From Dermabacteraceae bacterium TAE3-ERU5 (GTDB lineage Bacteria; Actinomycetota; Actinomycetes; Actinomycetales; Dermabacteraceae): a DNA stretch of 64,000 nt. Below the pieces are notes generated by a model. That model had not been told where the DNA came from and did not search any database. It saw only the letters and a list, made by a program, of their open reading frames with translations. Within the stretch, counting starts at the first letter, position 1. Every line of letters begins with the position of its first letter. Where the stretch lies: positions 1 to 64,000 of the forward strand of contig JAHUUK010000005.1 in assembly GCA_019218375.1 (NCBI GenBank), read 5' to 3'. The translations under genes and the position numbers were made by a program. Positions 8,712 through 12,181 of the stretch are shown here, in pieces.

Positions 8712-10565
8712 TTACTTACCGGACTCGTCCAGGCGATCAGCGACCTTGTCGGCCACCTGCTCCACGAACTCATCCGAGGCGGCATGCTGTTCGGCCATCT
8801 GGTCCGCTACGCGGTCCGCGACCTGTTCCATGAACTCGTCGCTCGCCTGCTGCTCAACCATCTGGTCGGCAACCTTGTCGGCCACCTGCTCCACCAGACC
8901 GTCCGAAACCTTGTCGGCCAGCTCCTCAGAGACCTGATCCGCCAGGCGATCCGAAACGTGGTTGACCAGGCGCTCACGCACCAGCTGGCGCTCGATGCGC
9001 TCGCGAATCTTGATCTCCCGCTTCAACGCCTTAAAGGTGGAAACGCACATGAAGAGCATGACCACCGAGAACGGTGCCGCAGCCAAAATCGTGAGCGCCT
9101 GAAGCGCGCCCATGCCGCTGCCGTCACCATCCACCGCGATCAGCACGGCGGCGATAACGCCCGAAAGCACTGCCCAGAAGGTACGGGTGGAACGCGGGGG
9201 CAGCGGATCGCCCTGGTGGGCAATCATGTCGACCACGAACGCGCCCGAGTCGGCGCTGGTCACGAAGAACACCGTCACCAGGATGATGGCGATACCCGAG
9301 AGGATCGCCCCGCCCGGCAGGTTGCTCAGCATGTCGAACATGGCGGTGTTGGTATTAACCGTGCCATCTTCGATCAGGCCCGCGTTCTTCACGGTTTCCT
9401 GGAAGATTGCGGTGCCGCCCATCACGGTGAACCAGAGGATCGTGATCAGGGTCGGTACCAGCAGTACACCCACGATGAACTCGCGCACGGTGCGGCCCTT
9501 GGAGATACGAGCGATGAACACGCCCACGAACGGGGACCAAGCGATCCACCAGCCCCAGTAGTAGGTGGTCCAGGAACCCAGCCAAGATTCGCCCTCTTCA
9601 CCGAAGAACGGGAAGGTCTGGAACGAGAGGCTAACGAAGTTCTGAATGTAGGAACCGATACCGGCCACGAACTCGCGCAGCAGGAACAGGGTCGGACCGA
9701 GCACCAGCACCAGCACCAGCAGCAGCGCTGCCAGGCCCATGTTCAGGTTCGAGAGGAACTTAATGCCCTTATCCAGGCCTGCCACCACGGAAACGGTGGC
9801 CAGCGCGGTGATGCCGATTACCAGGAATACCTTCACGGTGGGATTGGCGTGCAGCACGCCCAGGTGCTCCAGGCCCGCGGCGATCTGGTTGATGCCGAAA
9901 CCGAGCGAGGTAGCTACGCCGACCAGGGTGCCGACGATAGCCGTGATGTCGATCGCGTCGCCGATCCAGGAATTGGTGTGGCGACCCAGCACGGGCTCAA
10001 GCGCCCAGCGGATCGATACGGGGCGGCCGCGACGGTGCACGGCGTAGGCCACCGACAGGCCAACCACGACGTAAATGGCCCAGGCGTGAATACCCCAGTG
10101 CAGGAAGGTCTGGGTCATGGCGCGCTGGTAGTGCGCTTCCTGGCTGACGTACTGCACGCCGGGGGGCGTGAACTTGTCGGTCAGGTAGTTGAGGGGTTCT
10201 GCCGCGCCCCAAAAGACCAGGCCGATACCCATACCGGCCGCGAACAGCATCGCAAACCACGCGAAGATGTCGTATTCGGGCTCGGAATCGTCTTCGCCGA
10301 GGGGCACGGTGCCGAGTCGGCTGAACGCGAGGGCAAGCGCGAACACGACAAAGCCGGTAACGAGGAGTACGTAGTACCAGCCGATGCTGTTTACAACGGT
10401 CGTGTTAATTCCGGAAACGAAACTGTTAAAGCCTGCCGGCCAGATCAGGGCCAGGGCCAGGCAGACGGCGATAATCGCGGCGGAAAAACCGAAAACGCTG
10501 CGGGATAGGCCGTACTGATTTTGCTCTGTAGGGGGTGTAGCGGTCGTCGTTGTATTCGCTGACAT
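8712..10565 (-). CDS. BCCT-family osmolyte transporter with repeat tail
   Basis: A 617-residue betaine/choline/carnitine-type secondary transporter. It has about 12 transmembrane helices between residues 25 and 525, the GMGIGLVFWGAAEPL motif of the sodium/substrate region, and the family signature in helices 8-9 (WGWWIAWSPFVGVFIARISKG). It imports compatible solutes such as glycine betaine during osmotic stress. The cytosolic C-terminus (from about 530) is long and ends in three copies of a 21-22 residue unit of the form EQVADxVADxM(x)EQ..ASDEF, predicted to be helical and acidic. In BetP the C-terminal helix senses osmotic stress; whether this tail does so is inference. The gene is single. 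Confidence 0.92.
   Translation of the reverse strand: MSANTTTTATPPTEQNQYGLSRSVFGFSAAIIAVCLALALIWPAGFNSFVSGINTTVVNSIGWYYVLLVTGFVVFALALAFSRLGTVPLGEDDSEPEYDIFAWFAMLFAAGMGIGLVFWGAAEPLNYLTDKFTPPGVQYVSQEAHYQRAMTQTFLHWGIHAWAIYVVVGLSVAYAVHRRGRPVSIRWALEPVLGRHTNSWIGDAIDITAIVGTLVGVATSLGFGINQIAAGLEHLGVLHANPTVKVFLVIGITALATVSVVAGLDKGIKFLSNLNMGLAALLLVLVLVLGPTLFLLREFVAGIGSYIQNFVSLSFQTFPFFGEEGESWLGSWTTYYWGWWIAWSPFVGVFIARISKGRTVREFIVGVLLVPTLITILWFTVMGGTAIFQETVKNAGLIEDGTVNTNTAMFDMLSNLPGGAILSGIAIILVTVFFVTSADSGAFVVDMIAHQGDPLPPRSTRTFWAVLSGVIAAVLIAVDGDGSGMGALQALTILAAAPFSVVMLFMCVSTFKALKREIKIRERIERQLVRERLVNHVSDRLADQVSEELADKVSDGLVEQVADKVADQMVEQQASDEFMEQVADRVADQMAEQHAASDEFVEQVADKVADRLDESGK
8715..8891 (-). repeat. tandem coding repeat in BCCT transporter tail
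   Basis: Here 2.7 direct copies of a 63-66-bp coding unit encode EQVADKVADQM, EQVADRVADQM and EQVADKVADRL, each followed (except the last) by EQ, one to three variable residues and SDEF. The units differ by single-codon insertions and silent changes, so they are diverged genuine duplications rather than an assembly artefact. Confidence 0.85.
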
Positions 10566-11439: not shown

Positions 11440-11477
11440 TTGACATGCAGAAAACTTTATATAAGACTTATTGCATG
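11440..11477 (+). promoter_or_regulatory. promoter and palindromic operator of the SmtB-metallothionein operon
   Basis: TTGACA (11440-11445), a 16-bp spacer and TAAGAC (11462-11467) form a promoter whose expected start is the ATG at 11475, so the message may be leaderless. A two-level palindrome is centred at 11460.5: outer arms CATGCA (11444-11449) and TGCATG (11472-11477), and inner TTATATAA (11457-11464). It covers the spacer, the -10 and the start codon, so a bound repressor would block polymerase. The inner AT-rich part resembles SmtB/ArsR operators. The palindrome is direct observation; autoregulation is inference. Confidence 0.7.
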
Positions 11478-11780
11478 AGTGGTACGGAAGAGATTCTTGC
11501 AGGATACGAGGATGTGGCGCGCTTATTTGGTGCGCTGTCTAACCCGATCCGCGCAGCAATCGTCCACCGTATTAGCGAAGGGCACTGCACGGTCAGCGAA
11601 TTCGTGGACCTCCTGGGCCTATCGCAGCCGCTCGTATCGCAGCACCTCAAGGTGCTGCGGGAGGCGGAGATCGTCGTTGCCGAAAGGCGCGGACGGTCGA
11701 TGCACTACCACCTAGTTGATGAGCACGTGGCGCACGTTTTCCTCGATGCGTACGCCCATACCAAGGAGGAAAAAGAATGA
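11475..11780 (+). CDS. ArsR/SmtB-family zinc-responsive repressor
   Basis: A 101-residue winged-helix repressor (ARLFGALSNPIRAAIVHRI, helix-turn-helix LGLSQPLVSQHLKVLREAEIV). The C-terminal helix carries D82-x-H84-x10-H95-x2-E98, exactly the spacing of the alpha-5 zinc site in cyanobacterial SmtB (D104, H106, H117, E120). It should therefore release DNA when zinc is plentiful. ATG 11475 is chosen because the promoter elements point to transcription starting there; GTG 11394 and ATG 11445 are in-frame alternatives and would put the operator inside the gene. Its TGA overlaps the ATG of the metallothionein-like gene (ATGA). Confidence 0.88.
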   Translation: MSGTEEILAGYEDVARLFGALSNPIRAAIVHRISEGHCTVSEFVDLLGLSQPLVSQHLKVLREAEIVVAERRGRSMHYHLVDEHVAHVFLDAYAHTKEEKE

Positions 11781-12094
11781 CTGTCACCCACGCCCCCGCC
11801 GAAACCCATAACCACACCCACGGCCCCGACTGCGGCCACCTGGCCATCGTTCACGAAGACCACGTGGACTACCTGCACGACGGCCACGCTCACCGCGAGC
11901 ACGACGGCCACTACGACGAGTGCGCCACCTGCTCCTGCGGCGACTGCAACGACACCTGCGCCGCCTGCGAGTGCAGCGACTGCACCTGCGACACCTGCAA
12001 CCACGCCGTGTGCGAATGCGCCCACTGCGATGACGCCTGCGCGAACTGCGCCTGCGCCGACTGCACCTGCGCAACCTGCAAGCACGCTGCCTGA
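11777..12094 (+). CDS. Cys/His-rich metallothionein-like protein
   Basis: 105 residues with 20 Cys and 15 His. Residues 5-48 are His/Asp-rich (HNHTHGPDCGH, DHVDYLHDGHAHREHDGHYD), like a small conserved actinobacterial and proteobacterial metal-associated domain. Residues 49-101 hold 19 Cys in CxxC, CxC and CxxCxCxxC patterns (CATCSCGDC, CAACECSDC, CANCACADC), as in metallothioneins, with almost no aromatic or large hydrophobic residues. It probably buffers zinc (or Cd/Cu) in the cytoplasm. It is translationally coupled to the SmtB-type repressor and has a strong AAGGAGG site. This combined architecture is not a named family I recognise. Confidence 0.82.
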   Translation: MTVTHAPAETHNHTHGPDCGHLAIVHEDHVDYLHDGHAHREHDGHYDECATCSCGDCNDTCAACECSDCTCDTCNHAVCECAHCDDACANCACADCTCATCKHAA

Positions 12095-12111: not shown

Positions 12112-12147
12112 AAGGCGGCGGTTCCCAATGGGGGCCGCCGCCTTTCT
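12112..12147 (+). terminator. terminator of the SmtB-metallothionein operon
   Basis: The stem AAGGCGGCGG / CCGCCGCCTT, followed by TCTT, lies 18 nt after the metallothionein-like stop. It closes the two-gene operon before the next gene at 12182. Confidence 0.75.
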
Positions 12148-12181
12148 TCATAGTCCGCCCCGGTGCGGGTAGTGTGAGCAC

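Follow-up and report, generated by a model that had tools for sequence, protein, structure and literature searches.

A predicted SmtB-type repressor and a two-part His- and Cys-rich protein form a putative zinc-overload operon in actinobacteria

Our analysis of a 64,000-nt window of Dermabacteraceae bacterium TAE3-ERU5 (contig JAHUUK010000005.1) revealed a two-gene unit that is probably a self-contained zinc-overload operon, in which zinc would derepress the gene for a zinc-buffering metallothionein. Both ORFs were found where the initial annotation had placed them, at 11475-12094. The first (11475-11780, plus strand) encodes a 101-aa repressor of the ArsR/SmtB family, assigned from Pfam HTH_5, NCBIfam NF033788, and a metal-site motif; the second (11777-12094, plus strand), defined as an ORF and by homologue comparison, encodes a predicted metal-binding protein of 105 aa in which a His module is fused to a Cys-rich tail. 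The two genes overlap by 4 bp (ATGA). The fusion protein represents an unnamed yet recognisable actinobacterial family of putative metallothioneins that matched no Pfam or NCBIfam profile and that includes the skin and mouth genera Cutibacterium, Rothia, and Arachnia. Since the fusion comes with its own sensor and a readable operator, its regulation is directly testable.

A terminator-like hairpin at 12112-12149 (plus strand; 15 bp, 3-nt loop, and short T-rich tail) appears to end the two-gene unit. Its folding energy (-32 kcal/mol; z, -4.4) was equalled by none of 200 shuffles, and it was missed by a terminator scan, which applies a stricter T-run rule. The 1.92-Mb genome carries the fusion gene once; elsewhere it contains two Fur-family genes and three strong ABC-3 permeases of the zinc/manganese type.

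Repressor and predicted operator

The repressor matched the winged-helix ArsR domain (HTH_5, PF01022; E, 5.6e-13) and NF033788 (9.5e-25; 86.2 bits, exceeding the cut-off of 55). Its D82-x-H84-x10-H95-x2-E98 motif aligned on D104/H106/H117/E120 of SmtB (reference sequence identical to PDB 1r1t), in agreement with the zinc-site spacing noted initially. DxHx10Hx2E is the signature of alpha-5 SmtB/ArsR sensors (PMC8790569), and it was kept in all 32 readable orthologues adjoining fusion genes; the repressor frame of Rothia aeria (L033) is broken. The protein is, from these comparisons, a well-supported candidate for a SmtB-type alpha-5 metal sensor. Of 41 loci with the fusion gene, 33 have a repressor gene directly 5' of it, frequently with the 4-bp overlap.

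A pattern search identified a 34-bp inverted repeat (CATGC-N10-ATAT-N10-GCATG; 11444-11477, unstranded), the predicted operator, whose right arm holds the repressor start codon. The predicted plus-strand promoter consists of a -35 element (TTGACA, 11440-11445), a spacer of 17, and a -10-like element (AAGACT, 11463-11468), and both elements and the start codon lie inside or touch the repeat. This layout recurs at related loci; a generic consensus promoter scan made no call at 11440-11468 because the -10 element is weak. From the promoter spacing, the message is predicted to be leaderless, starting at the A of the ATG at 11475.

The repressor upstream regions of several genera share TTGACATGC...ATAT...GCATG, extending into the start codon, and in the best copy (L038), 32 of the 34 positions obey the symmetry. 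With up to three mismatches, the pattern was present in 20 of 39 fusion loci as against 1% of shuffles; 14 of these 39 loci carry perfect copies, and no copy with zero or one mismatch occurred in 2340 shuffles. In the host genome, it was found once (up to two mismatches), at 11444-11477. Most of the loci scored with this pattern had also served to derive it, so independent support matters. Such support came from L104, a locus from a separate scan that took no part in the derivation and has a perfect copy, and from L056 (3926-3959) and L064 (1975-2008), in which the operator lies 5' of a fusion gene with no adjoining repressor; the right arm is thus not retained merely as a start codon. The L056 genome also contains an unlinked repressor gene (63% identical) with the same operator over its start. 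At L056, the GCATG of the operator could begin a 15-codon leader peptide that ends in an ATGA overlap with the fusion gene.

The strict operator is absent from about half of the fusion loci, indicating that its use varies, and the fusion genes of L005, L050, and L139 have neither an adjoining repressor nor the operator. A weak Zur-box-like sequence, TGAGAATCATTTTTG, lies 5' of the repressor-less fusion gene of L005/L137, which is possibly under Zur control instead. Zur boxes were set aside as a general means of control of repressor-less fusion genes, this site being the one weak lead.

In the proposed mechanism, for which we infer DNA binding, derepression, metal identity, and cluster stoichiometry from the genes, motif, operator pattern, gene context, and conservation observed directly, a SmtB-type dimer would occupy the 34-bp repeat when zinc is not in excess, covering the -35 element, the -10 element, and the start codon and shutting off both the repressor gene and the metallothionein gene. 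A rise in zinc (or in cadmium or cobalt) would fill the alpha-5 site between the two last helices and release the repressor, and both proteins would then be made from one short transcript. The excess metal would be captured by the His module, as a fast site of lower affinity, and by two Cys units forming separate tight metal-thiolate clusters.

Composition and spread of the fusion protein

The residue counts given initially for the second protein proved exact: its 105 residues include 20 Cys, 19 of them within residues 49-101, and 15 His; only two are aromatic. The N-terminal His module (residues 1-48; 11777-11920, plus strand; 12 His and 1 Cys) has the form HTHGP-x-CGH...DHVDYLHDGH-x-H...EHDGHYDE. 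It is followed on the same strand by Cys unit A (residues 49-76; 11921-12004), with 10 Cys and the closing His76, and Cys unit B (residues 79-103; 12011-12085), with 9 Cys and the closing His103; unit comparison delimited both, together with the alignment for unit A. Unit B is a copy of unit A, the two being identical at up to 23 of 25 positions within one protein (L004 and L035). A single unit is present in three relatives (L060, from Cutibacterium namnetense, L062, and L064), and the tail of L106 is shorter still. Unit number therefore shifts by tandem duplication or loss, a variability that may be likened to that of other modular metallothioneins. The protein has the traits of a metallothionein in the general sense: it is small, rich in Cys arranged as CxC and CxxC, poor in aromatics, and conserved in its tail Cys. 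An AlphaFold model built from a 26-row alignment was set aside (pLDDT, 54; pTM, 0.31), low confidence being expected for a protein folded by metal.

These features bear on the possibility that the protein is structural, zinc-finger-like, or redox-active, with its Cys forming fixed sites or disulfides. Conservation above that of its repressor is what a folded protein would show; however, the scarcity of aromatics, the lack of a confident predicted fold, and the duplication and changing number of the tandem units make this reading very unlikely. That the units are Cu(I)-thiolate clusters like those of mycobacterial MymT or yeast CUP1 is highly improbable: CxC/CxxC arrays are able to bind Cu(I), and those of the Cys units could do so, but the SmtB-type sensor motif, the zinc-related neighbours, and the many His, which favour zinc, cadmium, or nickel, argue against copper.

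Full-length homologues with 63-75% identity were found in Nocardioides, Aeromicrobium, Rothia, Cutibacterium, Acidipropionibacterium, Propioniferax, Arachnia, Alloscardovia, Dietzia, Austwickia, Bowdeniella, and several metagenome-assembled genomes. Among the 42 actinobacterial loci fetched, which include a few near-duplicates, a 31-row alignment showed no variation in any of the 19 tail Cys, in His76 or His103, or in most residues of the His module, a degree of conservation far beyond chance. The fusion is not a one-off. The Cys tail alone was found in 3 of 396 genomes of a phylum sample and 9 of 297 of an order sample, and every tail from these genome-wide scans was joined to a His module; the low counts and the many genera indicate a fusion that is sparse but taxonomically wide in actinobacteria. 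Searches of plasmid and phage collections returned the His module only, not the full fusion.

Among named relatives, Dermabacteraceae bacterium TAE3-ERU27 (L031) is the nearest, its second protein being 99% identical. The metallothionein-like genes of the two differ by four synonymous and one non-synonymous nucleotides and the repressor genes by 20 and two, respectively, and the repressor is the less conserved of the two proteins. Shallow clades of the repressor and metallothionein trees are concordant; the deep nodes lack resolution, so we make no firm claim of transfer. Recurrent neighbour clusters other than the repressor and znu/zur genes reflect the close kinship of a few genomes.

Comparison with known systems

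The closest model is SmtB/SmtA of Synechococcus, with which the unit shares a SmtB-family repressor, identical alpha-5 spacing and residues, and a metallothionein-like target. The initial reading of a SmtB-type sensor paired with a metallothionein-like protein has good comparative support in the sensor site, in the operator, and in the zinc genes found nearby at some loci. The layout is not that of smtB/smtA, which is a divergon; the present genes form an overlapping, co-directional operon. The operators also differ, being 12-2-12 repeats for SmtB and 34 bp (16-2-16) here. A different protein architecture had likewise been claimed, and was borne out: the window protein carries the additional His module and gave no meaningful alignment with SmtA (BLASTP E of 0.33 over 14 residues), no metallothionein profile of NCBIfam matched it, and 26 fusion members gave no Pfam match at E values up to 1. 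By sequence, the fusion protein appears to lie outside the prokaryotic SmtA/BmtA metallothionein family.

Cyanobacterial metallothioneins are not known to carry the His module. The Pseudomonas metallothionein has a zinc-finger fold, and one such protein reportedly carries a His-containing disordered tail. Like the protein described here, it is a bacterial metallothionein; by sequence, however, it (PDB 6grv, 6gv6, and 6gv7) groups with SmtA, and it was absent from the PDB matches to the window protein.

Two cyanobacterial circuits are also close. The bxmR-bmtA operon of Oscillatoria, as cited in PMC8790569, pairs an ArsR/SmtB regulator with the metallothionein that it controls, and in Anabaena, the ArsR/SmtB regulator AzuR controls the metallothionein NmtA from within the znuABC operon (PMC8790569), a placement paralleled by the fusion genes located between znuB and zur. 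The operators of both systems differ from the 34-bp operator. In mycobacteria, SmtB acts beside Zur in zinc homeostasis, controlling zitA efflux and smtB-zur, and no metallothionein is mentioned in that report (PMC7174638). Neither the peptide motif nor a description of the fusion was found in open-licence PMC papers, and the bacterial metallothioneins met in that literature were of the cyanobacterial and Pseudomonas types. The view that the combination is undescribed thus stands for the protein family, which is new within Pfam, NCBIfam, and open-licence papers, and not for the circuit type, for which smtB-smtA and the bxmR-bmtA operon are precedents.

The His module and the zinc-gene context

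The window His module is up to 79% identical to proteins that consist of single or tandem modules of the DHVDYLHDGH type. Such proteins, like the ZnuB tails described below, share the His module of the fusion and often have the same SmtB-type repressor upstream; they differ in having no Cys units. Many stand-alone modules lie 3' of a SmtB-type repressor in which the metal motif is likewise present, and in many cases the upstream sequence is operator-like but of another form, ATATTGCAATA. This element, seen before the repressors of the His-only loci L011, L013, L020, L025, L029, and L030, is probably a second operator type. In Nocardia and others, where DEC again terminates the first module, a second His module replaces the Cys units. 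A contig of Vibrio cholerae 35D (L099) contains a repressor-His-module operon closely resembling the one of Arthrobacter (cf. L102), most likely through contamination of the assembly.

The module also occurs as the C-terminal tail of ZnuB permeases (L009, L010, L012, L018, L019, L022, L026, and L027). All eight ORFs matched ABC-3 at an E value of about 1e-58 or better, and a reading of the ORF list by eye placed a Fur-like gene after that of L009. On plasmids, the stand-alone modules bear the annotation 'zinc transporter permease', a name presumably copied from ZnuB-type permeases and probably a misnomer. At L036, L037, L049, and L059, the gene row is znuC-znuB-(repressor)-fusion-zur. These loci tie the anonymous DHVDYLHDGH module concretely to permeases for zinc uptake and to putative zinc buffering.

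The same context raises the possibility, real though somewhat unlikely, that the operon serves zinc storage and hand-off and not detoxification; the His module would collect zinc at the uptake permease and pass it to the Cys units as a reservoir, and the operon would store the surplus. The ZnuB tails, the four loci with the fusion gene between znuB and zur, and the three loci lacking a repressor, one with the weak Zur-box-like site (L005), are consistent with this. In the window and at most loci, however, the gene would answer to a SmtB-type sensor of excess instead of Zur, and uptake genes are absent from its vicinity. The window genes flanking the unit encode a BCCT transporter, a phosphorylase-superfamily nucleosidase, an alpha/beta hydrolase, and arginyl-tRNA synthetase (argS), none of them zinc genes.

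An operon for resistance to cadmium, lead, or another soft metal, with zinc incidental, is unlikely. Cys-rich clusters bind cadmium more tightly than zinc; but sensors of cadmium and lead typically have a Cys-rich alpha-3N site, whereas the present sensor has an alpha-5 site with O and N ligands. At the znuB-zur loci, the gene context is one of zinc uptake and Zur, and no efflux ATPase was prominent among the recurrent neighbour clusters inspected. In favour of cadmium, an alpha-5 SmtB-type repressor controls a cadmium-protective metallothionein in Anabaena (PMC8790569). The zinc-overload operon is the reading that we prefer; counting against it are the uneven use of the operator, the three fusion genes with neither repressor nor operator, the window neighbours with no zinc role, and the low-confidence model. 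More speculatively, and with considerable doubt, a zinc module derived from a ZnuB tail may have been joined to a new metallothionein, giving one protein that receives and stores zinc under an excess-zinc repressor with an unusually long operator that takes in the start codon of a leaderless message.

The neighbouring BCCT transporter (8712-10565, minus strand) extends about 100 residues past its BCCT domain. This C-terminus (8712-8960) contains VADKVADQM-type repeats with a DNA period of 63 bp and resembles a coiled-coil or amphipathic regulatory tail.
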